Assembly: GCF_013283645.1 (NCBI RefSeq) | Contig: NZ_JABEKV010000003.1 | Location: forward strand, 868,001 to 932,000 | Source: Sinorhizobium psoraleae | GTDB taxonomy: Bacteria; Pseudomonadota; Alphaproteobacteria; Rhizobiales; Rhizobiaceae | Direction: 5' to 3' | Length of the DNA: 64,000 nucleotides | In this document: in pieces, positions 24,779 through 45,897 of the stretch | Numbering within the stretch: position 1 is the first letter of the stretch | Layout: every line of letters starts with the position of its first letter | The notes under the pieces: generated by a model | Databases searched by the model: none | What the model saw: the letters and a program-made list of their open reading frames with translations, nothing else | Told to the model about the DNA's origin: nothing | Program-made: the position numbers and the translations under genes

Positions 24779-25143
24779 CTTTGAGGGGCGGCGACGTGCG
24801 ATCACGGCGATCCCGATTGTCGCCGTTTGTTGGCGAGAAAGCCGTCGCAAGTCAAGCACGGGCCGCATGCCGCAGACCACCCCAACAATTACAGGGTGCA
24901 ATTGCACGATCAATCCCGTGTACCATCGACGAATGATCAAAAATTGCGAACGTCTCTGGAAATCGCGCTCGGCGGTGAATATCTGCAGGTAAGAAGATGC
25001 GGCGATCCGATCGCTGCAATGCCTGCCGCAAAGCGCGGCACACGCCGTTCGTTACAACGGGCATCACACGGCAGACGCGGCCTTGTCGCAAGGTCCGCGC
25101 GATAGCTGTCGTTGCTGGCCGTCATGCCGATATGAGGAATGCG
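24779..25143. other. Divergent intergenic region, 365 bp
   Basis: Separates the sugar dehydrogenase and class III cyclase genes. It contains a perfect 12-bp palindrome at 24896-24907 within a locally less GC-rich stretch. Frames open through it belong to upstream extensions of the flanking genes and are not supported. Confidence 0.45.
24896..24907. promoter_or_regulatory. Perfect palindrome GTGCAATTGCAC
   Basis: A 12-bp perfect palindrome midway between two divergent genes (sugar dehydrogenase and cyclase). Position and symmetry suit a dimeric repressor or activator site; the regulator is unknown. Confidence 0.3.
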
Positions 25144-26493
25144 ATGAGCCCGATCAACAACAGCGTTTCCGAGATTCTTCTGGACAAGGTCGCAGACTGG
25201 CTGATGCGAGCATCCCTCAGCGACGAGACGCTCGAAACCCTCGTGCGCGGCTTCTGCGAACGCTTGGCCGCCGCGGGCCTGCCGCTCATGCGCGTCCATC
25301 TCTCCTTTTCGATGCTTCATCCGCTCTACGATGCACTCGGTTTCACGTGGTGGCGCGGCAAGGGCGTCGAGGTGAGCGGTTTGCGCCACGAGGAGCTGGC
25401 GCTCAATCCCGAGCGCTTTCTGCGCAGCCCCTACTACTATCTGCTCAACAACAACCTCGATCACGTAAGGCGGCGCATCGATCCAGCGGAACCGTCGGAG
25501 TTTCCGATTTTCGACGAGCTGAAGGAGCACGGTGCCACCGATTATCTGGCCTTCATGCAGCCGCTTGGAACCGATTCCGACCATGGCATGGTGGGGTCGT
25601 GGACGACGGATCGCCATGGCGGCTTCAGCGACGACGTGATCGCGGCGTTGCTCAAGCTTCAGAACCATCTGGCGGTCGCGGCCAAGGTCGCCGTCCTCGG
25701 CAAGCTCGCCGACAATATGCTGACGACCTATCTCGGCGCCAATGCCGGACGGCGCGTGATGAGCGGCCAGGTCAGGCGCGGCGATGGCGAGACGGTTCGC
25801 GCCGTCCTTGTGATGGCGGACATGCGGGAATCGACCATGCTCGCGGAGAAGGAAGGTCGCCAGGCCTATATCGAGACGCTCAACGGTTTCTTCGATGCGA
25901 TCGCGACGCCGTTCAATAGAAACGGCGGGCAGATCCTGAGCTTCGTTGGAGACGGGTTCATTGCCGTCTATCCATGCGGCCGCCACAAGGAGCCTTCGGA
26001 AATGGCCAGCCGCGAGGCGTTTGCCGCGGTGAGCGCGGCGACGGCGCGTGTGGCGGCGCTGAACGCGGAGAGGAAGCGGCAGGGACGCGATCTGATCGGC
26101 TATGGAATTGGCCTCCATGTCGGCAACGTCATGTTCGGAAATGTCGGGCTTCGTGACCGGCTGACCTTTTCCGTCTTCGGCTCGGCGGTGAACGAAGTGC
26201 AGCGGCTGCAAAACCTGACGAAAAAATACGCCCACAACGTTGTCGCCAGCGAGGCGTTCGTCAACTATTGCGGCGGCGACTGGGCAACGCTCGGACAGGA
26301 GAAATTGCGCGGCGTCCGGCAGAAATTCACCATCCTCTATCCCAAGGACGCAGCGCTTGCGGCAATTGCGGAAGAGCGCCCCGACGATGCAACTCAGGAT
26401 GGACTTTCGGAGGCGGAGCATGTCATGCTGCTCTACCGCAACACGAAGCAGTCGCCGGGGCCACGCGGCCTCATCGACAAGATGTTGCAGTAG
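25144..26493 (+). CDS. Class III adenylate/guanylate cyclase
   Basis: 449 residues. Residues 1-200 form the N-terminal sensor-like region common in rhizobial cyclases. The catalytic domain spans about 215-400: metal aspartates D226 (VMADMREST) and D270 (FVGDGF), transition-state N350 and R354 in SAVNEVQRLQ. The residue that usually reads lysine in the adenine pocket is S266 (ILSFVGDG), and the partner position is T341, so nucleotide choice is uncertain. The ATG at 25144 has GAGG six bases upstream. It should make cAMP or cGMP in the cytoplasm. Followed 31 bases later by a secreted polysaccharide lyase gene. Confidence 0.88.
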   Translation: MSPINNSVSEILLDKVADWLMRASLSDETLETLVRGFCERLAAAGLPLMRVHLSFSMLHPLYDALGFTWWRGKGVEVSGLRHEELALNPERFLRSPYYYLLNNNLDHVRRRIDPAEPSEFPIFDELKEHGATDYLAFMQPLGTDSDHGMVGSWTTDRHGGFSDDVIAALLKLQNHLAVAAKVAVLGKLADNMLTTYLGANAGRRVMSGQVRRGDGETVRAVLVMADMRESTMLAEKEGRQAYIETLNGFFDAIATPFNRNGGQILSFVGDGFIAVYPCGRHKEPSEMASREAFAAVSAATARVAALNAERKRQGRDLIGYGIGLHVGNVMFGNVGLRDRLTFSVFGSAVNEVQRLQNLTKKYAHNVVASEAFVNYCGGDWATLGQEKLRGVRQKFTILYPKDAALAAIAEERPDDATQDGLSEAEHVMLLYRNTKQSPGPRGLIDKMLQ

Positions 26494-26524: not shown

Positions 26525-27493
26525 ATGTTCCGTGTCGTTTTTCTGGCCGCAGCACTCGCTGCAACAAGCGTTGCGTATGCCCAATCGACGGAACGGCAAG
26601 CGGCCTTGGAGCAGAAGCTGGTCGACGGGTTCGAGGGCAGGGATTTTGCCCCCGAGGGCGGGCTCTACTATCGCGACAACTTCGAGCAAAGCGCCGGCTC
26701 CTATATATTCCAGAGTGAAGTCAAGCGCACCGGAAATGGTGGGTTGAAACTGTCCATCGTGCCGAAATGCCCGCCGTCGGACGACGGGTGCAGCGAGCGG
26801 GCGGAAATCTGGGAGAAGACGGCACTGCGCGTGCCTTACGACCAGGGAGTCTGGTACGGCTTTTCGGTCAAGTTCGCCGATCCCGTACCGAGTGGAGACC
26901 ATCGTTACCTCATCGCGCAATGGAAACGTGAAATCGATCACGGCGCCAACGGAGACTTCAGCCCCTTTCTGGCGTTCCGCATGAGCTTGGGAAAGCTCTT
27001 CGTTACCGTCGAGACCAATTATCTGCCGCCAGTGTCCACCGGGCCGGCGAGCACGCCGGCGCGCTGCGCGCCGGGGGAGGTTCCCGTATGGGTTCGCCCC
27101 GAACTGAACCAGATGCGCATGCTGGTTGCGTCGGACGCAAACTGGAAGGCGGAAGATGGTCGCCTTTTCAATTCGTGCACGACCGCGGTCACCGTGACCA
27201 ACCACGGCAATCCGCTGCCGGACCCCAAGTCCGGCTGGATCGACTTTGCCGTCTTCACCAAACCCGGACCTGAGGGGTCCGGACATATAGAGCTGTTCGC
27301 CAATGGGCAGCCGGTCATTACCGTGAAGGGGCATATCGGCCACGCGGACAAGGGGCTGGGCGAAAACCAATATTTCAAGTTCGGGCCGTACCGGGCGGCG
27401 GATACCACGAACTGGACGCTTTACTATGACGATTTCCGTCGCTCCACGCGTTGTGCCGACGTCCTGCCGAGCGGCATTTGTCCTTTCTCATAG
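26525..27493 (+). CDS. Secreted polysaccharide lyase (heparin lyase I / PL20-like fold)
   Basis: 322 residues with a signal peptide (FRVVFLAAALAATSVAYAQ). The mature protein has the beta-jelly-roll lyase pattern of the Polysacc_lyase family: SERAEIW, WYGFSVKFADP, RYLIAQWK, and near the C-terminus FKFGPYRA and YYDDFRR. By family it cleaves uronic-acid-containing glycans such as glucuronan by beta-elimination. The ATG is preceded by GAGGAGG... at about six bases. It sits between the cyclase gene and an oligosaccharide/oligopeptide-type ABC importer. It could trim the cell's own polysaccharide or digest an external one. Confidence 0.82.
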   Translation: MFRVVFLAAALAATSVAYAQSTERQAALEQKLVDGFEGRDFAPEGGLYYRDNFEQSAGSYIFQSEVKRTGNGGLKLSIVPKCPPSDDGCSERAEIWEKTALRVPYDQGVWYGFSVKFADPVPSGDHRYLIAQWKREIDHGANGDFSPFLAFRMSLGKLFVTVETNYLPPVSTGPASTPARCAPGEVPVWVRPELNQMRMLVASDANWKAEDGRLFNSCTTAVTVTNHGNPLPDPKSGWIDFAVFTKPGPEGSGHIELFANGQPVITVKGHIGHADKGLGENQYFKFGPYRAADTTNWTLYYDDFRRSTRCADVLPSGICPFS

Positions 27494-27712: not shown

Positions 27713-29605
27713 ATGACATCAGGAGCGGACCTGCTGCGAGTTGAGGGTCTGCGGATCACATTCTCGGTGCTCGGCGGCGAAGTCGAAGCCGTCAGGGGTG
27801 CAAATTTCAGGATTCTGCCAGGCAAGGTAACTGCGCTCGTCGGCGAGTCCGGGTCCGGCAAGTCGGCGATCAGCCAAGCCATCATGGGCATTCTGCCGAG
27901 CGTCGCAAGGGTTAGCGGACGCGTCCTGTTCAACGACCCGGCCGTCGCGGGCAAGCCTGTCGACCTGCTTTCGCTCGACCCGGAGGGGGGCGATATCCAG
28001 GATATTCGTGGCGCGCGCATCAGCAAGATCTTCCAGGAGCCGATGACCTCGCTGTCGCCGCTCCACACGATCGGAAACCAGATTTCCGAGGTGATGGCGA
28101 TACACACGGACGCCGAAAAGGCCGAGCGGAGAGCGAGGACCGAGCAGCTGCTGGGCTATGTCGGATTTGCCAACCCGGCGCGCGCTTACGACATGTACCC
28201 TTTCGAACTCTCCGGCGGGATGCGCCAGCGTGCGATGATCGCCATGGCGCTTATCTGCCGGCCGGCGCTCCTGATTGCCGACGAGCCGACAACTGCGCTC
28301 GACGTGACGGTACAGGCGCAAATTCTGCAACTGTTGCGCGAGCTTCAAGCGAAGCTCGATATGGCCATGCTGTTGATCACGCATGACCTCGGCGTCGTCG
28401 CCAACATGGCTGACGAAGTCGTCGTCATCTATCACGGCGAGATCGTCGAGGCGGGACCGGTCGATGCGATCTTCCGAAACCCCCAGCATCCCTATCTGAA
28501 GGGGTTGATGGCCGCTGTGCCGCACTTCGACATGAAACCCGGAGAGCGGTTGAAGGCATTGCGCGAAGTGCCGGTCAAGGCCGAAAGCCTTCTTGGAAAC
28601 AAGCAGTCTCGAAAAACCTCGGGCTCGGATATTCTGATCTCCGTCCGTAACCTGACGAAAACGTTCACCACCCGAAGCTCGGGTTGGTTTGGCAGCAACG
28701 GTGGCTCTGAGCACCGCGCCGTCGACAATGTCAGCTTCGACATTCGCCGCGGCGAATGCCTCGGTCTTGTCGGCGAAAGCGGCTGCGGCAAGACGACGGT
28801 GAGCAAGATCCTGATGCGTGCGGTGACCCCCGATGCAGGATCGATAACCTACGACGACGGCGAGGGGGCGATCGACCTCCTGAAGCTCGAGGGCGCGGCA
28901 CTGAAGGAGTTGCGCGCAAAAATCCAGATGGTCTTCCAGGACCCGGTATCGTCGCTTTCACCGCGCATGACGGTCAAGAACATTCTCAGCGAACCGCTCG
29001 AGATCCACGGTCGCGGAACGGCAAAGTCCCGGGTGGAAACCGTCCGCTCGCTGCTTCAGGCCGTCGGCCTCGACCAGCGTTTCATCAACCGCTATCCGCA
29101 CAGTTTCTCCGGCGGTCAGAGGCAGCGTATCGGCATCGCCCGCGCGCTCGCGCTCGTTCCGGAGTTGCTGATTTGCGACGAGCCCGTCTCCGCGCTCGAT
29201 GTCTCGGTGCAAGCCCAGATCCTCAACCTTCTCAAGGATTTGCAGAAGGAATTGGGCCTGACATCGCTGTTCATCTCGCACAATCTCGCGGTGGTGGACT
29301 ATATGGCGGATCGGATCGCGGTGATGTGCGCCGGCCGGATTGTCGAGCTTGCGCCGCGCGAAGTGCTGATGCGCAATCCCGTGCACCCCTATACCAAATC
29401 CCTGCTCGCAGCCGTGCCCTATCCCGATCTCGATCGGAAGCTCGATTTTGACGCCCTCCAGGCGAGCGGAGGGTCAGACAAGCGGCGGTGGGGAGCACAG
29501 TTCTCGGACGATGGTGAGGGCGACGCCCTCTTTCCTGCGAATCTCGGCGGCGATCATTTCGTCCTTGCCAGAAAGTCGGTGGATGCAAGGGAGCTACGCC
29601 CATGA
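27713..29605 (+). CDS. ABC importer ATPase, two fused nucleotide-binding domains (Dpp/Opp/Agp type)
   Basis: 630 residues. Domain 1 has Walker [12 protein letters not shown], signature [10 protein letters not shown] and Walker [13 protein letters not shown]. Domain 2 has [21 protein letters not shown] and [12 protein letters not shown]. Both domains end in the oligopeptide-transporter C-terminal extension ([26 protein letters not shown]). All catalytic residues look intact. It energises the importer formed with the SBP and two permeases that follow. The stop overlaps the SBP start (ATGA). In rhizobia such systems carry peptides or oligosaccharides (for example Agp for alpha-galactosides). Confidence 0.94.
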
Positions 29606-31503
29606 TCACCCGAAGAACGGCACTTGCCATGCTGGCTTCCACCGTTCTGCCGCCGCGCCTCCTCGCGGCGGGAACGGAGGCAGAGGCGCTTGCGCCGCTG
29701 GTTGCGGAAGGCAAGCTTCCTCCGGTCAACGAGCGGCTGCCGAAAACGCCGCGCGTGATCAATGTGGCGGCCATGGGGCGCACGCCAGGCAGGCATGGAG
29801 GCGTGATCCGCAGCCTGATCGGCAGCGCCAAGGACATCCGCCTGATGACGGTCTACGGCTACTCCAGGCTTGTCGGCTACGACGAGGCGCTGAACCTCAA
29901 GGCAGACGTTCTCGAAAGCTACGAAACGGTCGAGGACCGCATCTTCACGCTGCGTCTGCGCGAAGGCCACAAGTGGTCGGATGGAACGCCGCTTTCGACG
30001 GAAGACTTCCGCTACTGCTGGGAGGACGTGCTGCTCAACGAGGATCTCTCCCCGGCGGGTCTCCCGACGGCGCTGGTCATGGATGGCGAGGCGGGCAAAT
30101 TCGAGATCGTCGACGAGCGGACCGTGCGTTATTCCTGGACGAAGCCCAATCCCGATTTCCTGCAGAAGCTCGCCGCTCCGCAGCCACTGGTCATCGTGAT
30201 GCCGGCCGCCTACCTCAAACAGTTTCACAAGAAGTATCAGGACGAGGACAAGCTCAAAGCAACGATGAAGGAAGAGCGGGTCAAGAAGTGGAGCCAGTTG
30301 CACATGCGCATGGCCCGCTCCTATCGGCCGGAAAATCCTGATCTGCCGACACTCGATCCCTGGCGGAACACCACATCCCTTCCGGCCGAGCAGTTCATCT
30401 TCGAGCGCAATCCGTATTTCCACCGGGTCGACGAGAACGGCCTGCAACTGCCCTATATCGACAAGTTCGTTTTGAACGTCAGCTCCTCTTCGCTCATCCC
30501 GGCGAAAACCGGTACGGGCGAAAGCGACCTCCAGGCGACGGGCATTGATTTCGTCGACTACACTTATCTGAAGGATGCCGAGAAGCGCTATCCGGTAAAG
30601 ATCAAGCTGTGGAAGAAGACGCAAGGGTCGCGCCTGGCGCTGCTTCCCAATCTCAACTGCTCCGATCCGATATGGCGCCCGCTTCTGCAGGATGTCCGTG
30701 TCAGGCGCGCGCTGTCGCTGGCGATCGACAGGCGCGAGATCAACATGGCGGTGTTCTATGGTCTTACCAAGGAGAGCGCCGATACGGTGCTGCCGGACAG
30801 CCCGCTGTTCCGGCCCGAATTCGCCAGCGCCTGGGCGGCCCACGACCCGGATCAGGCCAACAGTTTGCTCGACGCGGCGGGCCTGGCCAAGCGCGGCAGC
30901 GACGGAATTCGTATCCTGCCGGACGGAAGGGCGGCGCAGATCGTCGTCGAGACGGCGGGCGAAAGCACGCTTGAGACGGATGTTCTGCAGCTCATAACCG
31001 ATTATTGGCAGAAGGTCGGCATATCGCTCTTCATCCGGACATCCCAGCGCGACACCTTCCGCAGCCGCGCGGTCGGCGGCGAGATCATCATGTCCATGTG
31101 GTTCGGCATCGATAACGGCGTTCCGACCGCGGACATGAATCCGGGGCAGCTTGCGCCCACGGCCGACGACCAGTTGCAATGGCCGGTCTGGGGGCTCAAC
31201 TATCTCTCGCACGGCGAAATGGGTGAGGCGCCGGAGCTGCCGCCGGTGGTCGAGCTTCTGGACCTGCTGAAACGCTGGCGGCATTCGTCGACCGATGTCG
31301 AGCGGGCGGAGATCTGGAAATCGATGCTCTCGATCTATACCGATCAGGTCTTCTCGATCGGCCTCGTCAACGCATCGCTGCAGCCGATCCTCGTCTCCGC
31401 GAAGCTCCGGAATGTGCCGGACAAGGCGCTATACGGCTTCGACCCGACGAGCTATTTCGGCGTGTACAATCCCGACACCTTCTGGCTCGAACAGGACGCC
31501 TGA
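29602..31503 (+). CDS. ABC importer substrate-binding protein, long SBP_bac_5 type
   Basis: 633 residues, about 100 longer than typical DppA. The N-terminus [20 protein letters not shown] has an arginine pair before a hydrophobic stretch, suggesting Tat export. The body shows SBP_bac_5 features: [20 protein letters not shown], then [17 protein letters not shown]. Extra length resembles the oligosaccharide-binding AgpA-like or YejA-like group rather than dipeptide binders. With the lyase directly upstream of the operon, an oligosaccharide ligand is a reasonable guess but unproven. Overlaps the ATPase gene by four bases and precedes the permease by one base. Confidence 0.9.
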
Positions 31504-31504
31504 C

Positions 31505-32503
31505 ATGCTGCGATACATTCTCTGGCGTATCGCCGCGATGGTTCCGACTCTCCTGATTATCTCGGCCTTGGTGTTTGCGATCATCGAACTGCCGCCGGGA
31601 GATTATTTCGAGAGCTACATCGCCGAGATCAGGGCGCAGGGCGAAGGCGTCAACATGGAGCAGATCGACGCGCTGCGCAAAGAGTACGGCTTCGATCAAC
31701 CGCCGGTGCTGCGCTACATCTATTGGGTCGCCGGCATGCTGCAGGGCGACTTCGGCTATTCGTTCGAATACGAACTGCCGGTGAGCGAGGTCGTGGGAGA
31801 CCGGCTCTGGCTGACGATCCTCGTCTCGTTCTTTACTATCATGCTGACCTGGATCATCGCGTTCCCGATCGGCATCTATGCCGCGACGCATCAGTATAGC
31901 TGGGGCGATTATGGACTTTCCCTGATCGGCCTCATCGGGATTGCGGTGCCGAATTTCATGCTGGCGCTCATCCTCATGTATTTCGCGAACATCTGGTTCG
32001 GCACCTCGATCGGCCATCTCATGGATCAGAAATACCTTTCCGAGCCGATGAGTTGGGACAAGGCCAAGTCGATGCTCGAGCACATGTGGATACCGGTGAT
32101 CATCATAGGCGCGGCGGGAACGGCGGGCATGATCCGGCGGCTCAGGGCCAACCTGCTCGACGAGCTTCAAAAGCAATATGTCGTCACCGCGAGGGCGAAG
32201 GGGCTCTCACCTACCAAGACCCTCCTCAAGTACCCGTTGCGCATGGCGCTCAACTTCTTCATCTCCGACATCGGCTCGATCCTGCCGGCGATCATCTCCG
32301 GCGCCGAGATCACGGCGATCGTCCTTTCGCTTGAAACGACAGGGCCGATGTTGATCAAGGCGCTGCAGAGCCAGGACATGTATCTCGCTGGTTCGTTCCT
32401 GATGTTTCTCGCATTTCTTACGGTCATCGGTGTGCTGATTTCCGATCTTGCGCTCGCCGTTCTCGATCCCAGAATCCGTCTGCAAGGCAGGAGTACGAAG
32501 TGA
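31505..32503 (+). CDS. ABC importer permease (DppB/OppB type)
   Basis: 332 residues. LRYILWRIAAMVPTLLIISA is the standard first membrane helix of this family, followed by five further segments. The EAA loop occurs around TARAKGLSPTKTLLKYPLRM. The frame is open well upstream, through the SBP gene, but the ATG at 31505 (overlap region TGACATG with the SBP stop) begins the recognisable family N-terminus. It pairs with the next gene to form the membrane channel. GTGA overlap with the following permease indicates coupled translation. Confidence 0.93.
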   Translation: MLRYILWRIAAMVPTLLIISALVFAIIELPPGDYFESYIAEIRAQGEGVNMEQIDALRKEYGFDQPPVLRYIYWVAGMLQGDFGYSFEYELPVSEVVGDRLWLTILVSFFTIMLTWIIAFPIGIYAATHQYSWGDYGLSLIGLIGIAVPNFMLALILMYFANIWFGTSIGHLMDQKYLSEPMSWDKAKSMLEHMWIPVIIIGAAGTAGMIRRLRANLLDELQKQYVVTARAKGLSPTKTLLKYPLRMALNFFISDIGSILPAIISGAEITAIVLSLETTGPMLIKALQSQDMYLAGSFLMFLAFLTVIGVLISDLALAVLDPRIRLQGRSTK

Positions 32504-33675
32504 CGTCACCTATACCGGCGCCCGGCGAACCCCTGCCGCATTACGTATCCACCGCCCCGTTCGATCCCTATTCCGTCGAGGTCATGACGGAGGAGCAGGT
32601 GCGCGTGAACCAGGCGTCGCAATTGCGCCTGATGTGGTGGAAGTTCAAGCGGCACAAGCTGGCGCTCGCCTCCGGCGTTTTCCTGGCAATCCTCTACGTC
32701 ATGATTCTCTTTTGCGAGTTTCTGGCGCCGTACAACCTCCACACGCGCAATGTCGATTTCATCTACACGCCGCCGCAGCCCGTTCACCTTTTCCATGACG
32801 GCGCATTTGTCGGCCCCTTCGTTTACGGCCGGACGATGACACTGGACATGGATACGCTGAAGCGGAACTATGCGGACAATCCCGCGGACGTGGAGCCGAT
32901 CCGCTTCTTCTGCCGCGGCGACAGCTATCGTTTCTGGGGTCTTTTCGAGACCAACCTGCATCTGGCCTGCCCCGCAGAGGGCGGCGAGCTCTTTCTCCTG
33001 GGGACCGACCGGCTGGGACGCGACGTGCTGTCGCGCATCATCTACGGCGCGCGGATCTCCCTGACCATCGGCCTTCTCGGCATTACCGTGAGCTTTGTGC
33101 TCGGGATCGTCATCGGTGGGCTTGCCGGCTATCATGGCGGCGTTTTCGATCTCATTGTCCAGAGATTGATCGAGGTGCTTCAATCGATTCCGAGCATTCC
33201 GCTGTGGCTGTCGCTCGCGGCGATCATGCCCGCAACATGGAGCCCGATCCTCATCTATCTCGGTATCACCGTGATTCTGGGGCTTCTCGATTGGACGGGC
33301 CTTGCGCGGGCCGTCCGCTCGAAGCTGCTTGCGCTGCGCGAGGAGGATTATGTCCTTGCGGCACAGCTAATGGGCGCGCGAAGCAGCCGCATCATCGGGC
33401 GACATCTTGTGCCGGGGTTCATGTCCCATCTCATTGCCACCGCGACGATCTCCATACCCGGCATGATCCTCGGCGAGACGGCGCTGAGCTTCCTCGGGTT
33501 GGGTCTGCGCCCGCCTATAACGAGCTGGGGCATCCTGCTGACGGAGGCAAAGAGCGTCAGCGTCATCGCTTTCTATCCCTGGCTGCTCTTTCCGACTATA
33601 CCGGTCATTCTTGTGATTTTGGCGTTCAACTTCCTGGGAGACGGCTTGCGCGACGCGGCCGATCCCTACAAATAA
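32500..33675 (+). CDS. ABC importer permease (DppC type, extended N-terminal region)
   Basis: 391 residues, about 90 longer than usual DppC. After the first membrane helix (about 60-80) a ~110-residue periplasmic insertion with two cysteines (RFFCRGDS, HLACPAEGG) comes before the standard core LLGTDRLGRDVLSRIIYGAR. This extension is found in the same subgroup as the long SBPs. The EAA loop is near QLMGARSSRIIGRHLVPGF. The start is a GTG at 32500 that overlaps the previous stop. Ends 77 bases before a glycosyltransferase gene on the same strand. Confidence 0.92.
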   Translation: MTSPIPAPGEPLPHYVSTAPFDPYSVEVMTEEQVRVNQASQLRLMWWKFKRHKLALASGVFLAILYVMILFCEFLAPYNLHTRNVDFIYTPPQPVHLFHDGAFVGPFVYGRTMTLDMDTLKRNYADNPADVEPIRFFCRGDSYRFWGLFETNLHLACPAEGGELFLLGTDRLGRDVLSRIIYGARISLTIGLLGITVSFVLGIVIGGLAGYHGGVFDLIVQRLIEVLQSIPSIPLWLSLAAIMPATWSPILIYLGITVILGLLDWTGLARAVRSKLLALREEDYVLAAQLMGARSSRIIGRHLVPGFMSHLIATATISIPGMILGETALSFLGLGLRPPITSWGILLTEAKSVSVIAFYPWLLFPTIPVILVILAFNFLGDGLRDAADPYK

Positions 33676-33752: not shown

Positions 33753-34967
33753 ATGGTACGGCGTTTCGAGGATGCCCGGATCCTCATGTACAGCCACGAC
33801 ACGTTCGGCCTCGGTCACCTGCGGCGCTGTCGGACGATCGCGCATGCGCTCGTGGAAGACTATAGCGGATTGCAGATCCTGATCATCTCCGGTGCAACGA
33901 TCGCCGGAGCCTTTGATTATCGCGCGCGTGTTGACTTCGTGAAGATTCCGAGCGTCATCAAACTCAGAAACGGTGAATACACATCGCTCGACCGGCACAT
34001 CGAGTTGCACGAGACGCTGAAGATGCGCCAGTCGATCATTCGCTCCACGGCCGAGACGTTCAAGCCGGACATCTTCATCGTTGACAAAGAGCCGATGGGC
34101 CTGCGCGGAGAGGTCGAGGATACACTCACCTATCTCAAGACCCACGGCACGAAGTTGGTTCTTGGGCTTCGGGAGATCATGGACGCGCCGCATCTGCTCG
34201 AAGTCGAATGGAAGCGTCGCGACACCATGCGCAAGATCGAGCAGTTCTACGATGCGATCTGGGTTTATGGCCCGCCGGATTTTTACGATCCGCTGGTGGG
34301 CCTTGAGGTGCCCGCGGCGGTGCGCGAACGCATGAACTTCGTCGGTTTCCTGCAACGAAGCGTGCCGCATGACGGGCTGCCCGACCACAGGCCGGAAGGG
34401 GACTATATCCTGGTCACCACCGGTGGAGGCGGTGACGGCGCCGAACTCATTCATGACGTGATCCACGCCTATCAGCAGGATCCCGAACTGACGTACAACG
34501 CTCTCGTGGTGCTCGGGCCTTACATGCCGGCGAAGCAACGCAACAAGCTGATCAAGAAGGGCGGTCGTATCCCTTTCATCAAGATAATCGAGTTCGACAA
34601 TCGCATGGAGGAACTGATCGCCGGCGCAAGAGGGGTGGTCTCGATGGGCGGCTACAACACCTACTGCGAGATTCTCTCCTTTGACAAACCGGCCTTGATT
34701 GTGCCGCGTCTCGAGCCGCGCGAGGAGCAGTTGATCCGCGCTCGACGCGCGTCCGATCTTGGCCTGGTCGAGATGCTGCTTCCCGATGAGGCCGAGGATC
34801 CGCTGCGGTTTGCGGCCGCGTTGAAGGCGTTGCCGGGACGCGCGCCCCCGTCGCGCGCCGCCAATGGCCTGAGGCTTGAGGGCCTTGTCCACATCTCCGA
34901 GCTTGTCGGCAGCTGGCTCGATCATAGATCGAAAGAGCACCTGAGCATCGTGAAGCAAACGAGCTGA
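33753..34967 (+). CDS. GT-B glycosyltransferase, MurG/GT28-like
   Basis: 404 residues. The N-terminal motif MYSHDTFGLGHLRRC (H15, H22) resembles the GxGH loop of MurG-like enzymes, and the C-terminal domain has GVVSMGGYNTYCEIL, the donor-binding glycine-rich turn. The same GYNTxC(D/E)IL pattern occurs in the protein at 36216-37343, so the two are paralogues. No membrane segment is evident. It likely acts at the cytoplasmic membrane surface on a lipid-linked or nucleotide-linked acceptor. First of three tightly packed glycosyltransferase genes downstream of the ABC importer. Confidence 0.8.
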   Translation: MVRRFEDARILMYSHDTFGLGHLRRCRTIAHALVEDYSGLQILIISGATIAGAFDYRARVDFVKIPSVIKLRNGEYTSLDRHIELHETLKMRQSIIRSTAETFKPDIFIVDKEPMGLRGEVEDTLTYLKTHGTKLVLGLREIMDAPHLLEVEWKRRDTMRKIEQFYDAIWVYGPPDFYDPLVGLEVPAAVRERMNFVGFLQRSVPHDGLPDHRPEGDYILVTTGGGGDGAELIHDVIHAYQQDPELTYNALVVLGPYMPAKQRNKLIKKGGRIPFIKIIEFDNRMEELIAGARGVVSMGGYNTYCEILSFDKPALIVPRLEPREEQLIRARRASDLGLVEMLLPDEAEDPLRFAAALKALPGRAPPSRAANGLRLEGLVHISELVGSWLDHRSKEHLSIVKQTS

Positions 34968-34971
34968 GCCA

Positions 34972-36219
34972 GTGTCGCCAAATCGTAAGATTGCCGTCGT
35001 CCTGAAAGGCTATCCGCGCCTGTCGGAAACCTTTATCGCGCAGGAACTGCTTGGCCTCGAAAAGGCGGGGCACGAACTCGTTCTGGTCGCGCTCCGTCGT
35101 CCGACCGATGGCAAGCGACATCCCGTGCACGACGAAATCCGCGCCGACGTCCACTATTTGCCGGAATATTTGCACGAGGAACCGTGGCGCGTGTTTCGCG
35201 CGTGGCTCCGGCTGATGCCGAAAGCCGGCTTCTGGCGAGCGCTCGGCCTATTCCTTGCGGACCTCATGCGCGACCCGACGCGCAACCGGTTCCGGCGGTT
35301 CGGGCAGGCACTGGTACTGGTCGCCGAATGGCCGGGCGCCGCGACCTGGCTTCACGCACATTTCATCCACACGCCCGCCTCGGTGACCGGTTATGCCAGC
35401 ATCATCGCAGGCGTCCCCTGGACCTGCTCCGCCCATGCCAAGGATATCTGGACGTCGTCCGATTGGGAGCTTTCCGAAAAGCTCGACCGGGCCCGCTGGA
35501 CTGTTACCTGCACACGCAGCGGCTTCGAGTACCTGCAAAGCCTGACGGCATCGAAATCAAGGGTGCATTTGAGCTATCATGGCCTCGACCTGGACCGCTT
35601 CCCGGCCTTTGGAGGCGACCACTCCGGCCGCGATGGCTCCGATCCTGCCGATCCCGTTCGAATCGTCAGCGTCGGGCGCGCCGTCGCCAAGAAGGGCTAT
35701 GATATCCTGCTGAAAGCCTTGTCGCTTTTGCCTGGCGATCTCAACTGGCGCTTCGAGCATATCGGCGCGGGCGAACTTGCCGGCGACCTCAAGAAGATCG
35801 CCCGCGAACTCGGCCTTGCCGACCGTGTCAGCTGGAAAGGTGCGCTCGACCAGACTGACGTGCTCCAGCATTACCGCGACAGCGACATGTTCGCGTTGGC
35901 GTGCCGGGTTGCAGCCGATGGTGACCGCGACGGCTTGCCCAACGTTCTGGTCGAAGCGTCGAGCCAGAGATTGCCTTGCGTCTCGACATCCGTTTCGGGC
36001 GTCCCGGAATTGCTGGCGGACAATCAGAACGGCCTTCTCGTGCCCCCCGAAGACCCTCGTGCGCTCGCCGTAGCGATCGAGCGGCTGGCTCGCGACCCGG
36101 ATCTCAGGCGCCAGCTTGGCGCGGCCGCCGAACGGCGCGTTCGCGCCGAGTTCGACCATCATGCGAGTGTGAGCCAACTGATCGGGCTCTTCGAAAGCGA
36201 GTGGAGCAAGGCCTCTTGA
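34972..36219 (+). CDS. Glycosyltransferase family 4
   Basis: 415 residues. KIAVVLKGYPRLSETFIAQE is the N-terminus typical of GT4 enzymes of the colanic-acid WcaL/AmsK group. The C-terminal site is RDGLPNVLVEASSQRLP with the donor-binding glutamate. HAHFIHTPASVTGYAS and HAKDIW in the middle also match that group. Starts at a GTG four bases after the preceding stop. Its own stop is overlapped by the TTG start of the next gene, so the three glycosyltransferase genes form one translational unit. Confidence 0.9.
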   Translation: MSPNRKIAVVLKGYPRLSETFIAQELLGLEKAGHELVLVALRRPTDGKRHPVHDEIRADVHYLPEYLHEEPWRVFRAWLRLMPKAGFWRALGLFLADLMRDPTRNRFRRFGQALVLVAEWPGAATWLHAHFIHTPASVTGYASIIAGVPWTCSAHAKDIWTSSDWELSEKLDRARWTVTCTRSGFEYLQSLTASKSRVHLSYHGLDLDRFPAFGGDHSGRDGSDPADPVRIVSVGRAVAKKGYDILLKALSLLPGDLNWRFEHIGAGELAGDLKKIARELGLADRVSWKGALDQTDVLQHYRDSDMFALACRVAADGDRDGLPNVLVEASSQRLPCVSTSVSGVPELLADNQNGLLVPPEDPRALAVAIERLARDPDLRRQLGAAAERRVRAEFDHHASVSQLIGLFESEWSKAS

Positions 36220-37343
36220 CCAAGCGCGTCTTCTTTTATGTGCAGCATCTGCTCGGTATCGGGCATCTGGCACGAGCGAGCCGGATCGCGAAAGCGTTGT
36301 CCGCCGACGGGTTCGACGTGACGCTGGTCACCGGCGGTGCGCCTGTTCCGGGATTTCCGGCAGATGGCCTGACGACGGTCGCGCTACCGTCGGTAACGGC
36401 CGGAGACAAGGGCTTTTCCGGTCTGACCGACGGCGACGGCAATCCGGTGACGGACGCTTTCCAGCAACACCGCAAGAACCTGCTGATCGAGGCACTGCAC
36501 GCTTCGAAGCCTGATGTCGTCATCATCGAAGCGTTCCCCTTTGGCCGCAGGCAGATGCGTTTCGAACTGCTGCCGCTGCTGGATGCCATTGCGGCGATGG
36601 AGCGGCGGCCGCTGGTGGCGACTTCGCTGCGCGACATTCTTCAGGAACGGGTCAAACCCGGCCGTGCAGAGGAGACGGTGGAACTGGTCAAGGCGCATTT
36701 CGATCTCGTGCTCGTCCACGGCGATCCAGCGTTTGCTCGGCTTGAGGAAACTTTTCCGCTCGCGGGCGAGATCGCCCAGAAGGTCGCCTACACCGGTCTT
36801 GTCGCACCGCCGCCACCTGCCGAACCGAAGGAGAAATTCGATGTCGTGGTTTCGGCGGGTGGTGGCGCCGTCGGCAAGGATCTGATCGGCGCAGCGCTCG
36901 GAGCCGCAGCAATCCTGCCGAAGACGCTTCGCTGGTGCCTCGTAACCGGGCCCAACCTGCCGCAGGCTGATTTCGATGCCCTCGCCGCCGTAGCTCCGGC
37001 CGGCGTCGGTCTCTTTCGCTTTCGGCAGGATTTTGCGGCCCTGCTCGCCGGGGCCCGGCTCTCGGTCTCTCAAGCCGGATACAACACCGTTTGCGATATT
37101 CTTCGCGCCGGCTGCGGCTCGTTGCTCATTCCCTTCACGGCGGGTGGGGAAACCGAGCAGAGTACACGTGCGATACGGCTCGAAAGACTCGGCCTTGCCC
37201 GCGTTCTGCCGGAGGAAGACATCACGTCCGATCGGCTCGCACGCGATATCGAGGCGATGCTTGACCGGCCTAAACCGGAGGTCCCGCCGCTTGATCTTGA
37301 CGGCGCCGCCCGGACGGCAGCGATCCTCCGGGAGCACCTGTAA
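36216..37343 (+). CDS. GT-B glycosyltransferase, MurG/GT28-like (paralogue of 33753-34967)
   Basis: 375 residues from a TTG at 36216 that overlaps the previous stop as TTGA; GGAGCAAGG lies just upstream. The frame is open much further up, inside the previous gene, and a GTG at 36201 is an alternative. KRVFFYVQHLLGIGHLARAS is the GxGH loop, and VSQAGYNTVCDILRAG in the C-terminal domain is the donor site. It shares these motifs with the protein two genes upstream, which suggests duplication of one gene around the GT4. Sugar and acceptor are unknown. Confidence 0.8.
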   Translation: MTKRVFFYVQHLLGIGHLARASRIAKALSADGFDVTLVTGGAPVPGFPADGLTTVALPSVTAGDKGFSGLTDGDGNPVTDAFQQHRKNLLIEALHASKPDVVIIEAFPFGRRQMRFELLPLLDAIAAMERRPLVATSLRDILQERVKPGRAEETVELVKAHFDLVLVHGDPAFARLEETFPLAGEIAQKVAYTGLVAPPPPAEPKEKFDVVVSAGGGAVGKDLIGAALGAAAILPKTLRWCLVTGPNLPQADFDALAAVAPAGVGLFRFRQDFAALLAGARLSVSQAGYNTVCDILRAGCGSLLIPFTAGGETEQSTRAIRLERLGLARVLPEEDITSDRLARDIEAMLDRPKPEVPPLDLDGAARTAAILREHL

Positions 37344-37351
37344 GCGGGAGG

Positions 37352-38020
37352 TCAGACCGTCCCGATCAGCATGAAGCGGTTGTATTTTTTCATCGGCAGC
37401 GTGCCCGCGAAGTCAAGTTTCGCCAGGCCGGCTCGTGCCTGAAACTCCTCAAGCGACGAGACGCAGCTTATGTGGGTCGGTTCGCTGAAATAGTCGTTTG
37501 ACTGCAGCAGTACGCGGGTCGCCCGTGGAAGAAGCTCGAGCCAGAGTCCGAGATCGGCAATATGCTCGCAGCTCGTATTGACGATCAAGTCGGCCCCAAT
37601 GGTCCGGTAGTCGAGAGCATACATGTCCGCCGTTATCGCCCGGAACCGGTCGCCATGCGCTGAATTCAGCGTGCGTGCGACCTCCTCCACCGCAGGATCG
37701 ATGTCGTAGCTATCGATCGTGCCGATGTCGAAGCGCGCGTCTTCGAAGAGCATTGCCGGCAAAATCCCGTACCAGCCGCCCAGCACGGCGATTCGATCGA
37801 AGGCCGGGCCAGAGCTTTCGAGCAGCTTGTCACGCGCCCAGATTTTGCAGCCGACCTGTTTATAGTTGAACGCGTTCGCGATGTCCGCGTCCCGGTGCTT
37901 GGCTATCACCTTGCCGATGCCCGCCACGACGGCGCTGCCGGAATAAACGGCGATCCCGCGTACGAGATCATAGGCGTTCTCGTGCCAATCTTCGGGGGGA
38001 GAATGGGTGGCATGCATCAT
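37352..38020 (-). CDS. Class I SAM-dependent methyltransferase-like protein
   Basis: 222 residues. IAVLGGWYGILPAML resembles the glycine-rich motif I loop, and IDSYDIDPAVEEVA the acidic motif II of class I methyltransferases. VNTSCEHIADLGLW follows where motif IV would be. The fold is likely, but the exact reaction is not. It converges with the glycosyltransferase gene, with only eight bases between stops. In this setting it may methylate a sugar or small metabolite. Confidence 0.68.
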   Translation of the reverse strand: MMHATHSPPEDWHENAYDLVRGIAVYSGSAVVAGIGKVIAKHRDADIANAFNYKQVGCKIWARDKLLESSGPAFDRIAVLGGWYGILPAMLFEDARFDIGTIDSYDIDPAVEEVARTLNSAHGDRFRAITADMYALDYRTIGADLIVNTSCEHIADLGLWLELLPRATRVLLQSNDYFSEPTHISCVSSLEEFQARAGLAKLDFAGTLPMKKYNRFMLIGTV

Positions 38021-38331: not shown

Positions 38332-41043
38332 ATGGAAACACGTCTTTCCCGCTACATCTGGACTCACACACGCAAGCAGCAGCTTTGGATACTGCTGGTC
38401 GTTGCGCTGTCGATGGTACCCTATTTCCTGTCCTTTGATCTCCCCAAGCAGATCGTCAACGGACCGATTCAGGGCGCGGGTTTCGAAAGCCCCGAGGCAA
38501 CCCAGGCCTTCCTGCCGATTTCCTTCGATCTGCCCTTTTTTGGCGAGGTCAATCTGTTTTCGGGCTTTCAGCTTGAGCGGGAGGGAATGCTGCTTGCCCT
38601 CAGCCTTGTCTTCTTGCTGCTCGTCATCATCAACGGGCTCTTCAAGTTCTACATCAATACCTACAAGGGCCGGCTCGGCGAGCGCCTCCTGCGGCGCATC
38701 CGCTTCGAGCTTGTCGACCGCGTGCTTCGCTTCCCGCCGGGTCACTTCAAGCGCGTGAAGCCCGCCGAAATCTCGACCATGATCAAGGATGAGGTCGAGC
38801 CCCTTGGCGGGTTCACCGGCGATGCCTTCGTACAGCCGGCGCTGCTTGGCGGCCAGGCCTTGACCGCGCTGATCTTCATCCTGCTCCAGAGCCTGTGGCT
38901 CGGTCTCATCGCCGCCTTTATCGTCGCGATACAGGCGGTGATCATCCCACGCATGCGCCGGCGGCTGATCGTCCTGGGGCGCGAACGCCAACTGACGGCG
39001 CGCGAATTGTCGGGCCGGGTCAGCGAGATCGTGGACGGCATCGGCACCATTCGCGGGCACGATACGTCCAACTATGAAAGAGCCGACATCGCCGCCCGCC
39101 TCGGCCGGATATTCAAGATCCGCTATGATCTCTATCAGTGGAAGTTCCTGGTCAAGTTCCTGAACAACTTCCTGGCTCAGGTCACTCCGTTCCTGTTCTA
39201 CTCGATCGGCGGCTATTTCGCCCTGCAGGGCCGGCTCGATATCGGCCAGCTCGTTGCGGTGATCGGTGCCTATAAGGACCTGCCCGGTCCCCTGAAAGAA
39301 CTCATTGACTGGGACCAGGCGCGCCAGGACGTGCAGGTCAAGTACGCCCAGGTCGTCGAGCAGTTCAGTGTCCAGCCGTTGATCGATCCAGGCGTCCAGG
39401 CGATCTCAGTCACCGCTGCCGCGCCGATCACGGGAGCGCTTGCAGCCGTCAACCTTTCTGTCGCCGACGACGGCGGTTCGAAGCTCGTGGAACATGTGTC
39501 GCTCCAGGTGCGCCCCGGCGAAGCTGTCGCGATCACGGGCGGCTCGACCGGCGGGGGAGAGGCGCTTGCCGAGGCCTTCGGACGCCTGACATGGCCCGAA
39601 AGCGGCAGGATCGTCGTCGGCGACGATGATATCCACGACATGCCGGAATCGGTCGTCGGACGGCGAATCTCCTACGCCTCGTCGGAGGTCTACACCTTCC
39701 AGGGCAGCCTTGGCGACAATCTGCTTTACGGCCTCAAGCACGCGCCTCTGCAGGAGGTGGCTTACGAGGGCGACAAGGCTGCCCATCGTCGGTGGGAGGT
39801 GCTCGAAGCAAAACTTGCCGGCAATCCCTCGCTCGATCTCAACAGCGACTGGATCGATTATGGGGCTGCGGGTGCGACCGGCCCGGACGATCTCTTCGCG
39901 AAGGTCAGAGCTGTGCTCGATACCGTGCTTCTCACGAACGACATCATGGCGCTTGCGGGCCGCGCGACCATTAATCCCGAGGAACACGAAGCTTTTGCCG
40001 CTGAAATCGTGGAGATGCGTGGAGCCCTTCGCAGGCGCCTCGAAGCCGAGAAGCTCAGCGATCTCGTCGTGTTCTTCGAACCCGGTTCCTACAATATCGA
40101 GGCGACGGTCGGCGAAAACCTGCTCTTCGGGACGGTGACCGATCATGCGCGCTGGGAAAAGGCGCTCGAAGATCACCCCTTCTTCAAGACGGTCTTGAGA
40201 AGAGCCGGGCTGCACGAGATCTTCTACGAGATGGGCCTGGAAATTGCCGGCAACGTCGTCGAACTGTTCCGCGACCTGCCTCCGGACCACCCGTTCTTCC
40301 AGCAACTCACCTTCATGGCGGCAGAAGAGATTCCGGTCTATGAAGCGCTGCTCCAGAAGGTGAGGGGACGAGCGCTCGACGAAGTTTCCGAGGATGATGC
40401 CATCAAGATCATCCGTCTGTGCTTCGGCTATATCGAGCCACGCCACCGCTTCGGCCTGTTGTCGGAAGAATTGATGACGAAGATCGTCGAGGCGCGGCGG
40501 GAGTTCAGCGAAGGTTTGCCCGAGGATCTCGTCGGCATCATCGAGCACTACCAGCCGAACCGTTACATAGCCTCGGCCAGCATCATCGATAACGTGCTCT
40601 TCGGTCGCATCGGCCACAAGCACACCGACGGTTCCGAGAGAATCCGCGCAATCGTGCGCGATCTCTTCGAGTCACTCGGGCTCTACAACGATGTGCTTGC
40701 CTTCGGACTGGACTTCAACGTCGGCGCGGGCGGCAAGCGGCTGACCGCGGGCCAGCGGCAGAAACTCAACCTTGCGCGCGCATTGATCCGCGTGTCGGAC
40801 TTCTACATCTTCAATCAACCGCTGCTCGCGCTCGACCAGCGAGCACAGGAGCAGATCACCCGCAACGTCTTTGCCTTCCTGCGCCAGGACGAACGCAAGC
40901 CGGCGATCGTCTGGGTTCTCGCCAATCCGGCTCTTTCCGAATTGTTCGACCGCGAGGCGTACTTCGAAAACGGGCGGCTCGTGAGCGACGAAGCTGTGGA
41001 AACACGCGTGAAAGACAGCGACTATAAGGAACTGGCATCTTGA
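38332..41043 (+). CDS. ABC exporter-like protein with degenerate, expanded nucleotide-binding domain
   Basis: 903 residues, about 300 more than a usual half-transporter. Residues 1-330 are an exporter-type membrane domain (LGERLLRRIRFELVDRVLRF, then RGHDTSNYERADIA). The nucleotide-binding part is degenerate. Walker A reads GGSTGGGEA with E410 in place of lysine. The signature is LTAGQ at 804-808. Walker B reads FYIFNQ with N828 and Q829 for the Asp-Glu pair, and the H-loop region LANP has no histidine. Three copies of the post-Q-loop motif end at 467 (GDNLLYG), 600 (GENLLFG) and 758 (IDNVLFG). The frame is unbroken, so it looks functional rather than decayed. ATP hydrolysis is doubtful. A cyclic-nucleotide-binding gene follows. 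Confidence 0.88.
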   Translation: METRLSRYIWTHTRKQQLWILLVVALSMVPYFLSFDLPKQIVNGPIQGAGFESPEATQAFLPISFDLPFFGEVNLFSGFQLEREGMLLALSLVFLLLVIINGLFKFYINTYKGRLGERLLRRIRFELVDRVLRFPPGHFKRVKPAEISTMIKDEVEPLGGFTGDAFVQPALLGGQALTALIFILLQSLWLGLIAAFIVAIQAVIIPRMRRRLIVLGRERQLTARELSGRVSEIVDGIGTIRGHDTSNYERADIAARLGRIFKIRYDLYQWKFLVKFLNNFLAQVTPFLFYSIGGYFALQGRLDIGQLVAVIGAYKDLPGPLKELIDWDQARQDVQVKYAQVVEQFSVQPLIDPGVQAISVTAAAPITGALAAVNLSVADDGGSKLVEHVSLQVRPGEAVAITGGSTGGGEALAEAFGRLTWPESGRIVVGDDDIHDMPESVVGRRISYASSEVYTFQGSLGDNLLYGLKHAPLQEVAYEGDKAAHRRWEVLEAKLAGNPSLDLNSDWIDYGAAGATGPDDLFAKVRAVLDTVLLTNDIMALAGRATINPEEHEAFAAEIVEMRGALRRRLEAEKLSDLVVFFEPGSYNIEATVGENLLFGTVTDHARWEKALEDHPFFKTVLRRAGLHEIFYEMGLEIAGNVVELFRDLPPDHPFFQQLTFMAAEEIPVYEALLQKVRGRALDEVSEDDAIKIIRLCFGYIEPRHRFGLLSEELMTKIVEARREFSEGLPEDLVGIIEHYQPNRYIASASIIDNVLFGRIGHKHTDGSERIRAIVRDLFESLGLYNDVLAFGLDFNVGAGGKRLTAGQRQKLNLARALIRVSDFYIFNQPLLALDQRAQEQITRNVFAFLRQDERKPAIVWVLANPALSELFDREAYFENGRLVSDEAVETRVKDSDYKELAS

Positions 41044-41103
41044 TGTAGTATTAGTGTCAAGGCGCAAGCATATTTTCCCGCTCGCCGGGGGGAAAGGGTG
41101 CTT

Positions 41104-41601
41104 ATGCCCGCGACACACTCGGAGAAGCGGACTGTTATGCTCCTAAAAGATGAAGTGGAAATGCTGCGCCGGATCACGCTGTTTTCCGGCTTACCACCCG
41201 CCAAGCTCAAGCTTCTGGCATTCACCTCCGACAGGGTAATGTACAGCGCGGGAGAAAATCTGTTTCATCAAGGCGATATCGGCGACGCGGCCTATGTGAT
41301 CCTCTCCGGCAAAGCCGATGTTTTGGTTACGACGCCAAATGGACAATTGAAAGTCGCCGAGGTGGAACAGAATTCGATCGTCGGCGAGATCGCCATCCTC
41401 TGCAACACGCCGCGCACAGCTACCGTCAAGACAAGTACGGGGCTCGAAGCGTTGCGCATTCGCAAGGACGATTTCCTGAAATTGCTGGCGGACTTCCCGG
41501 AGATGGCGGTGGAAATCATGCGCGTGCTCGCCGACCGCCTCAGCCAGACCACCTCCGAACTCACCGAGGCGCGCAGCCGCGCTCAGAGGGCAGAGGCGTA
41601 A
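41104..41601 (+). CDS. Cyclic-nucleotide-binding domain protein
   Basis: 165 residues, a stand-alone CAP-family beta-barrel. The phosphate-binding cassette reads GEIAILCNTPRTATV, with E95 and R104 in the positions that hold the ribose and the cyclic phosphate. No DNA-binding helix-turn-helix follows; the C-terminus is a helix rich in E, R and A. It should bind cAMP or cGMP and pass the signal to a partner protein. The ATG at 41104 follows GGGGGGAAAGG. It lies 60 bases after the degenerate ABC protein, the most obvious partner. Confidence 0.9.
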   Translation: MPATHSEKRTVMLLKDEVEMLRRITLFSGLPPAKLKLLAFTSDRVMYSAGENLFHQGDIGDAAYVILSGKADVLVTTPNGQLKVAEVEQNSIVGEIAILCNTPRTATVKTSTGLEALRIRKDDFLKLLADFPEMAVEIMRVLADRLSQTTSELTEARSRAQRAEA

Positions 41602-42626: not shown

Positions 42627-43094
42627 TCATCGTGCCTTGATCCGCAGCGGATCGATACCGTTGCGGCCGAAACGGGCTGGTTCCTGTGCCTTCCCGGAGT
42701 TCGCTTCCGCTTCGGCAAGGTCATCGAGGATCGGGCAATCCGGCCGCTCGTCGCCGTGGCAATGGGCGGCGAGATGCTTGAGCGTCCGGCTCATCGCCTT
42801 CAGTTCTTCCGCCTTGCGCTCCAAGATTTCCACTTGATCGAGCGCGATCTTCTTGACCTCGCTGCTTGCGCGGGAGCGGTCGCGCCAGAGTGCAAGCAGA
42901 TCCGTCATCTGCTCGACCGTGAACCCGAGATCACGCGCGCGGCGGATGAAGCGAAGCGTATGGACGTCGTTGGCGCCATAGTTGCGGTAACCGGCTTCGC
43001 TGCGGTGGGCAGGCGGAATGAGGCCGATCGTCTCGTAGTAGCGGATCATTTTCGTCGAGACGCCGGAGGCGCGCGCGACATCGCCGATATTCAT
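42627..43094 (-). CDS. hmrR: Cu(I)-responsive MerR-family regulator
   Basis: 155 residues. MNIGDVARASGVSTKMIRYY is the MerR helix-turn-helix. Cysteines C112 and C120 in HCHGDERPDCPIL fall exactly where CueR/HmrR proteins bind Cu(I). The start at 43094 has AAAGG upstream; the frame extends to 43133. It lies downstream of actP on the same strand. Targets are the two promoters with 19-bp spacers at 45813-45843 and 46712-46742, where it should activate transcription when copper is bound. Confidence 0.94.
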   Translation of the reverse strand: MNIGDVARASGVSTKMIRYYETIGLIPPAHRSEAGYRNYGANDVHTLRFIRRARDLGFTVEQMTDLLALWRDRSRASSEVKKIALDQVEILERKAEELKAMSRTLKHLAAHCHGDERPDCPILDDLAEAEANSGKAQEPARFGRNGIDPLRIKAR

Positions 43095-43258
43095 GACATC
43101 ACCTTTCAGGGCAATTCCAGGAAAAGCGTGCAACAGTTTCCCGTCCGGAATTGCGGTAATTCAAAGAGTTGGATCATTCTCTCACTGTTTCAATGAACAA
43201 TGCAGCATATGCCGCTGATATAGGACTCTCGCTCGCAAGGCGCCAATGGCGCCAGGCG

Positions 43259-45781
<2,523 letters not shown>

Positions 45782-45812
45782 GTCGTGCTCCTTGCAAATG
45801 TGATTGCGAACC

Positions 45813-45843
45813 AGGATGAGGCTTCTCGCGATGGGAAGGTCAA
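45813..45843 (-). promoter_or_regulatory. HmrR/CueR-type promoter of actP
   Basis: On the minus strand, TTGACC (-35, 45838-45843) and CATCCT (-10, 45813-45818) are separated by 19 bases, the lengthened spacer typical of MerR-activated promoters. The spacer region holds an imperfect dyad CTTCC-N7-AGAAG. It points to actP, whose start codon is 32 bases downstream. Very similar to the site at 46712-46742. Confidence 0.8.
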
Positions 45844-45897
45844 GCTTGCCTTGCCCGTCCGCTCGCTTTTTCAGCCGTCCGAAAATGCGTCGTAGTT

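Follow-up and report, generated by a model that had tools for sequence, protein, structure and literature searches.

An ABC exporter-like protein of Sinorhizobium psoraleae with an eroded ATP site, a tripled Q-loop/helical unit and an adjoining cyclic-nucleotide-binding protein

What might an exporter of the ATP-binding cassette (ABC) type do once its ATP site has eroded? The question is raised by a gene in a 64,000-nucleotide stretch of the Sinorhizobium psoraleae genome (assembly GCF_013283645.1, contig NZ_JABEKV010000003.1, positions 868,001 to 932,000 of the forward strand), referred to here as the window and numbered from its first letter. The gene lies at 38332..41043 on the forward strand, starts with ATG and encodes an ABC exporter-like protein of 903 residues with an eroded ATP site, as recognised with Pfam, AlphaFold and Foldseek. 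An earlier note, made from the letters of this DNA alone, had already drawn attention to it. The reading to which we lean, tentatively, is that of a transporter or gate of exporter fold which has an eroded ATPase, may be under cyclic-nucleotide control and perhaps handles a glycan or glycolipid; its control, its transport and its cargo are what we infer. The strongest clue, which the earlier note had missed, is a cyclic-nucleotide-binding (cNMP) partner that adjoins the ABC protein or is fused to it.

By profile and by predicted fold, the 903-residue protein is a type IV (MsbA-like) ABC exporter. Its membrane domain (residues 1–345, 38332..39366, +) was matched by Pfam PF00664 (ABC_membrane) at residues 88–311 (E-value 1.6e-19, 71.1 bits against a cut-off of 28). 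The match to PF00005 (ABC_tran) was split into two stretches (5e-10, 40.6 bits against a cut-off of 25). The top NCBIfam model was MsbA with an E-value of 2.8e-45, yet with a score of 154.9 bits against a cut-off of 602. An AlphaFold model built from 48 relatives reached a mean predicted local distance difference test score (pLDDT) of 75 and a predicted template modelling score of 0.65, with the nucleotide-binding domain (NBD) and the insert within it mostly at 75–94, and with a poorer membrane domain consisting of long helices, much of it at low pLDDT. When this model was searched with Foldseek against the PDB, the top matches were the type IV exporters TmrAB, MsbA, PCAT1 and P-glycoprotein, and all 50 matches listed were ABC exporters, with TM-scores of at most 0.35 by query length and 0.53 by target length. 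As the membrane domain and the fold are those of type IV exporters, the "new ABC class" proposed in the earlier note is too strong; the protein is a new variant of the type IV exporter, and a separate class is not supported on present evidence. It may be added that short strands were modelled at low confidence between the first two long helices (residues ~48–82), which suggests a small extracytoplasmic beta element.

To place the ATP site in its family, 311 loci were reduced to 269 by removal of near-identical sequences and to 268 full-length ones after one fragment was dropped, and these were aligned with the window protein; residues were counted over 163 members, the window protein included, that are pairwise less than 80% identical. 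Conservation within the family is highest in the membrane domain, where the mean column entropy is 1.58 compared with 2.19–2.29 in the NBD halves and the insert; this suggests that a pathway or a specific lipid contact still matters. The Walker A position corresponds to residues 403–411 (39538..39564, +). Since relatives with G-x-x-G-x-G-K-E place their lysine on G409, the lysine slot holds Gly, and E410, which the earlier note had taken for the replacement, falls in the next (Ser/Thr) slot, where E or D is found in 108 of the 163 members. The lysine slot itself is occupied by R in 66 members, K in 52, A in 28 and G in 11. The slot of the Q-loop Gln was likewise moved, from the Q741 first suggested to S451, in the first of three motif copies; Gln stands there in 18/163. 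At the Walker B position (residues 824–829; 40801..40818, +), the family alignment agrees with the first description in that N828 and Q829 stand in place of Asp-Glu, D being present at 828 in 49 members and E at 829 in 47. The H-loop histidine is indeed missing, with A864 in its slot (40921..40923, +; His in 26/163). The signature-like stretch GKRLTAGQRQK (residues 801–811; 40732..40764, +) is another matter: LTAGQ survives in the window protein in place of LSGGQ, as had been said, while across the family it is only partly kept (L804 in 157, Q808 in 139 and R809 in 145 of the 163). The D-loop Asp is retained in 111.

No member of the 163 carries all five of the K, Q, D, E and H residues, and 55, the window protein among them, carry none. 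Relatives with intact Walker motifs, which the earlier note had named as counter-evidence, gave a mixed picture: K and the catalytic Glu are retained together in 32 members, and K, D, E and H together in three (loci L185, L190 and L286). When residue changes were counted on a quick, unrooted tree of the membrane domain of the 163 members, the minimum numbers were 20 for K409, 16 for Q451, 20 for D828, 22 for E829 and 15 for H864. The losses are thus not a single event, the residues being missing in many separate lineages. Because near-intact relatives exist, the family is read as the descendant of an ordinary ATPase that has been eroding in parallel; the tree being unrooted, the direction of loss is an inference. 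Among close relatives the replaced residues can be stable, N828 being invariant in all 48 aligned sequences (64–94% identical), and the conserved loss that the earlier note had proposed to look for was therefore found at this site. Purifying selection acts on the window gene. Compared with four Sinorhizobium/Ensifer relatives (loci L003 and L009, without a start match, were left out), the ratio of nonsynonymous to synonymous substitution rates (dN/dS) was 0.073–0.092 over the full open reading frame (ORF); at the motifs that were once catalytic it ranged from 0 to 0.14.

The NBD has been enlarged as well as eroded. The three motifs reported earlier at residues 454–467, 587–600 and 745–758 were found again at these positions, and profiles of the surrounding units, made from the 163-member set with rows of more than half gaps skipped, were compared by HHalign. 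Units 2 and 3 matched with a probability of 98.4% (E-value 8.6e-15), units 1 and 3 with 94.4% (8.8e-8) and units 1 and 2 with 92.1% (6.4e-7), with nine control comparisons at 1.3% or less. A Q-loop/helical unit is truly present three times, and on this point too the outcome favours the earlier note. Unit 1 (residues 446–468; 39667..39735, +) is the true Q-loop site and includes S451; unit 2 (578–600; 40063..40131, +) contains N596 and unit 3 (736–758; 40537..40605, +), which runs into the pre-signature stretch, contains N754. Each motif was modelled by AlphaFold as a strand, a loop and a short helix. The helices preceding motifs 2 and 3 are also copies of each other by profile–profile comparison (98.6%, 1.1e-15); a further suggestion, that this helix is a copy of the signature helix, was unsupported, with 0.4% and 2.1% compared with 0.3–1.2% in controls.

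Together, some 290 extra residues lie between the Q-loop and the signature, with units 2 and 3 inside and at the end of the insert. When 15 further ABC proteins encoded in this genome were compared, they followed the family profile only to about copy 1, and the match resumed at profile positions 792–811, just before the signature, in 13 of them and at 759 and 733 in the other two. These 15 were pre-filtered for well-scoring ABC domains and an intact Walker A and served to locate the insertion point only, so that their intact sites are no independent control. The insert proper, unmatched by these proteins, spans residues ~476–735 (39757..40536, +). Its conserved residues include N498, W507, D509, R563 and R722. 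N596, N754 and R722 are present in 163/163 members, R563 in 162 and W507 in 160, and all five are better kept than any of the five ATP residues. When the insert was searched against Pfam for four members and against PDB sequences, no match was obtained.

The cNMP partner is encoded at 41098..41601 (+) by an ORF of 167 residues with a PF00027 match (E-value 2.9e-21) and no other Pfam domain; its true start may lie further in, the coding sequence in Sinorhizobium meliloti being 465 bp. The phosphate-binding cassette lies at 41377..41433 (+), and its Gly-Glu and Arg are present, with the Glu and Arg at E97 and R106. Neighbourhoods were compared over 147 loci with at least 8 kb of sequence, of which 137 came from across the order and class and 10 from Rhizobiaceae/Phyllobacteriaceae, some genomes contributing two or three. 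The cNMP domain was encoded by the same-strand downstream neighbour in 125 loci and formed part of the ABC protein itself in 17; in 5 it was not found. An adjoining or fused partner is thus present in 142/147. In the fusions (L201, L202, L207, L212, L223, L224, L249, L251, L252, L293, L295 and L301–L306), it stands at the C-terminus of ORFs of about 1010–1130 codons. Among 122 stand-alone relatives, the cassette Gly was kept in 122, the Glu in 116 and the Arg in 121; among 19 ABC ORFs longer than 1000 codons with an alignable tail, the Glu position held Glu in 14, Asp in 4 and Asn in 1. The cNMP pocket is thus conserved alongside an ABC protein whose ATP residues drift.

The genes around this pair point to glycans. 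In the window, a glycosyltransferase with a GT28 C-terminal domain (33753..34967, +; PF04101), a group 1 (GT4-like) glycosyltransferase (34972..36219, +; PF00534) and a second GT28-type glycosyltransferase of uncertain start (36144..37343, +; PF04101) were found, and their families recur in 98, 99 and 87 of the 147 loci, respectively, a fourth glycosyltransferase family occurring in 86. At least one glycosyltransferase lies near the ABC gene in 103/147 loci, and at least three of the four families do so in 91/147. These neighbours suggest a glycan or glycolipid cargo in most loci, not in all.

A transporter that does not use ATP would need another input, and the cNMP pocket is the only ligand site of the module that is kept with near certainty and is naturally fused to the ABC protein; for these two reasons gating by a cyclic nucleotide is proposed. 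The cNMP protein would dock on the enlarged cytoplasmic domain, and binding of cyclic nucleotide, instead of ATP, would open or close the exporter-fold pathway, the signal being relayed from the cNMP domain through the tripled Q-loop/helical units. The class III cyclase and MBL-fold genes that recur downstream of the ABC gene, all in a row with the ABC and cNMP genes at L173, would fit such a signal. The cargo might be a saccharide, free or lipid-linked, produced by the glycosyltransferases encoded nearby, which is the least certain point. Movement could then be downhill or powered by the proton gradient. MsbA without its NBD is reported to have still transported ethidium in dependence on the proton gradient (PMC4979069), and this is the closest parallel to movement in the absence of an NBD. 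The non-hydrolysing channel or regulated gate imagined in the earlier note comes close to this reading. Stated in full, as a cyclic-nucleotide-gated, non-hydrolysing transporter or channel of ABC fold whose ATP sites were dropped in parallel across the Alphaproteobacteria and whose NBD grew by triplication of an internal unit, the proposal is somewhat more doubtful than in its general form.

A number of observations weigh against this proposal. Some of the 32 members with both K and E may still hydrolyse ATP, and if ATP played no part at all, it would be surprising to see the signature largely kept. Among the three K/D/E/H keepers, L190 and L286 have a cNMP neighbour and L185 has none, so that in this small set the loss of ATP residues and the presence of the cNMP neighbour do not vary together. 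Forty-four of the 147 stretches gave no member of the four glycosyltransferase families, and the link with glycans is therefore not universal. The window has its own gene for a class III nucleotidyl cyclase domain protein (24997..26493, +; PF00211, E-value 2.5e-7); this lies 12 kb upstream of the ABC gene and is tied to it by position only. An MBL-fold protein encoded near some of the ABC genes scored 37.5 bits (locus L093) against the NCBI cyclic-nucleotide phosphodiesterase model, which has a cut-off of 400, and scored higher as RNase Z, with 83.3 bits that are also below the cut-off of 252. The AlphaFold model, finally, is weak in the membrane domain.

Published genetics of S. meliloti also bear on the question. 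The orthologue in strain 2011 lies at pSymB 841,727–844,435, and strain SmB2.0, which lacks pSymB nt 122,109–1,129,757, is described in a 2025 paper as having grown and formed Fix+ nodules, with a shoot weight of 40–50% of wild type (PMC12239276). If the numbering of that paper is the same, growth appears to be possible without the orthologous stretch, and symbiosis does not absolutely depend on it. As for the numbering, SMb21188 is given at Rm1021 positions 938,297–938,439 (PMC3687685), which land in an acyltransferase ORF at 937,975–939,144 of the 2011 record; by this agreement, the Rm1021 and 2011 numberings match to about 1 kb at one marker. As a million other bases are also absent from SmB2.0, the gene may still have a subtle role, and the phenotype counts only mildly against an essential function. 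SMb20813 is called an msbA homologue in one paper (PMC10945364); that it is the orthologue is possible but unproven, the strain 2011 record carrying no gene annotation. The S. meliloti msbA2 (SMb21191) operon places an MsbA-like exporter beside glycosyltransferases on pSymB (PMC3687685) and so resembles the window cluster. Identity with msbA2 was rejected, since the strain 2011 exporter there has 597 residues, with Walker A and Walker B motifs of the usual kind (GRSGAGKT and ILILDEAT, respectively).

The remaining explanations must be weighed against the same evidence. The protein could be the degenerate half of a heterodimeric exporter, in which a half-exporter encoded elsewhere supplies the working Walker A and B and this one the signature, as in TAP or TmrAB. 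A signature kept better than the Walker motifs (Q808 in 139 and R809 in 145 members, compared with K409 in 52) would fit, as would the presence of TmrAB among the top Foldseek matches and of two or three family members in some genomes; TAP, TmrAB and TM287/288 share degenerate Walker residues and a partly kept signature with the window protein. In contrast to them, no partner half-exporter was found in the cluster and the loss includes the Walker A lysine. Nor was a second ABC exporter family found among the 45 most widespread gene groups around the 147 loci, where the only other recurrent ABC ATPase belongs to an Opp/Dpp importer (44/147). We regard such a pairing as rather unlikely, and give about the same weight to a membrane scaffold or sensor which does not transport and which recruits or switches the glycosyltransferases on cyclic nucleotide; each is about half as likely as cyclic-nucleotide control of a transporter or gate. 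The lost ATP site, the large conserved cytoplasmic insert, the cNMP partner and the frequent glycosyltransferases would all suit a scaffold, whereas a membrane domain that is the most conserved part of the protein, and the 44 loci lacking all four glycosyltransferase families, speak against it.

Less probable again is an exporter which is still driven by ATP and binds it unconventionally, for instance through Arg or the main chain in place of the Walker lysine. Arg does replace Lys in 66 of the 163 members, and the signature and D-loop Asp are mostly kept, but the window protein has all five key residues changed and the full set is found in no member. That the gene is decaying or an assembly artefact is very improbable: in-frame stops do occur in one same-genus genome and in three further matches (two from the order, one from the class), but the low dN/dS, the invariant residues of the insert and a gene neighbourhood common across the class argue against it, as does the single open frame in 21 of 23 same-genus genomes. 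All 23 carry the gene, which sets aside the sequencing or assembly artefact that the earlier note had allowed for; in the other two it contains an in-frame stop or is spread over two contigs.

Compared with known systems, the likeness to MsbA and the type IV homodimeric exporters consists in membrane-domain and NBD homology and fold matches; the window protein differs in that its Walker A Lys, Q-loop Gln, Walker B Asp-Glu and H-loop His are all changed, and in its added residues with two extra post-Q-loop units and its cNMP partner. Among the ABCC proteins that have become channels or regulators, the exporter fold is re-used for gating in SUR, which is offered as an analogy only. The same applies to CFTR, which hydrolyses ATP at one site (PMC7756269); the window protein has none of the five residues, and its likely ligand would be a cyclic nucleotide, bound by a domain that is separate or fused. 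The window cNMP protein also matched TIGR03896, the NCBIfam model for cNMP proteins of bacteriocin-type transport (E-value 2.3e-14, 53.5 bits against a cut-off of 161), but its neighbours are glycosyltransferases and an exporter-like protein, and the window cluster showed no recognisable bacteriocin gene.

If the cyclic-nucleotide reading holds, the family would be a test case, provided by nature, of the uses of an NBD without ATP, ABC exporters being defined by ATP use, and a possible new output of bacterial cyclic AMP and cyclic GMP signalling, the known outputs of which are mainly transcription factors and enzymes. The contrast between the three K/D/E/H keepers and the window clade, which keeps none of the five residues, is open to test. 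Relatives are annotated as "ABC transporter ATP-binding protein", a name of which the eroded genes should make annotators wary; no description of the family was found in the open-licence papers searched.

Searches were extended up to the phylum Pseudomonadota. A protein match was found in 29 of 40 relatives at an E-value threshold of 1e-60. With the threshold at 1e-70, 94 of 297 order-level genomes, 96 of 289 class-level genomes and 21 of 299 phylum-level genomes matched, the last count including the own genome; the insert profile alone matched 31 of 398 genomes of the phylum, again with the own genome (1e-6). In the scan of GTDB contigs the best 80 of 403 relatives were used. Every match in both phylum searches came from the same class or nearer, and among the Pseudomonadota genomes sampled the family was found only in Alphaproteobacteria. 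Plasmid records gave 262 matches, and the organism names among the matches listed (10 of 13) are alphaproteobacterial genera. The in-frame stop in a few members (G013 (L019), G169, G218 and G527) may come from sequencing error or from decay that is recent. Genomes G472, G691, G144, G173, G221, G075, G361, G107 and G220 each carry two or three members of the family, and such paralogues could form heterodimer pairs.

Several other genes recur near the ABC gene or lie beside it in the window. The Opp/Dpp-type importer, comprising a fused double ATPase (the family counted in 44/147 loci), an SBP_bac_5 protein and two permeases, is encoded at 27713..33675 (+). A methyltransferase-like protein (37352..38020, −), matched weakly below the Pfam cut-off, occurs mostly in near relatives, and a polysaccharide lyase (26525..27493, +; PF14099, E-value 1.3e-36), linked by position only, adjoins the window cyclase. 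Further recurrent groups over the 147 loci are one with no Pfam match (52) and a histidine phosphatase (49). A recurrent neighbour of about 290 residues (L208:16125–17006 and 51 further loci) gave no Pfam match at an E-value of 0.001 and contains a WWRDDDA-like stretch which may resemble polysaccharide deacetylases. The MBL-fold gene is present in 42 loci and lies downstream on the same strand in 41 of them. A class III cyclase family was counted in 21 loci, in 17 of which it takes that same position; at L173 the gene order is ABC, cNMP, cyclase, MBL-fold. The downstream cyclases of L068 and L173 carry a 2Fe-2S ferredoxin-type domain (PF00111) ahead of the class III cyclase domain, possibly for redox-controlled cyclic-nucleotide synthesis. 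Further downstream in L173 a DUF3095 protein is encoded (L173:16650–17804; PF11294, E-value 3.1e-130). In the window, at 42627–46240, an ORF resembling a MerR-type regulator (42627–43133, −) was seen by eye, and the long minus-strand ORF next to it looks like a P-type ATPase for heavy metals.

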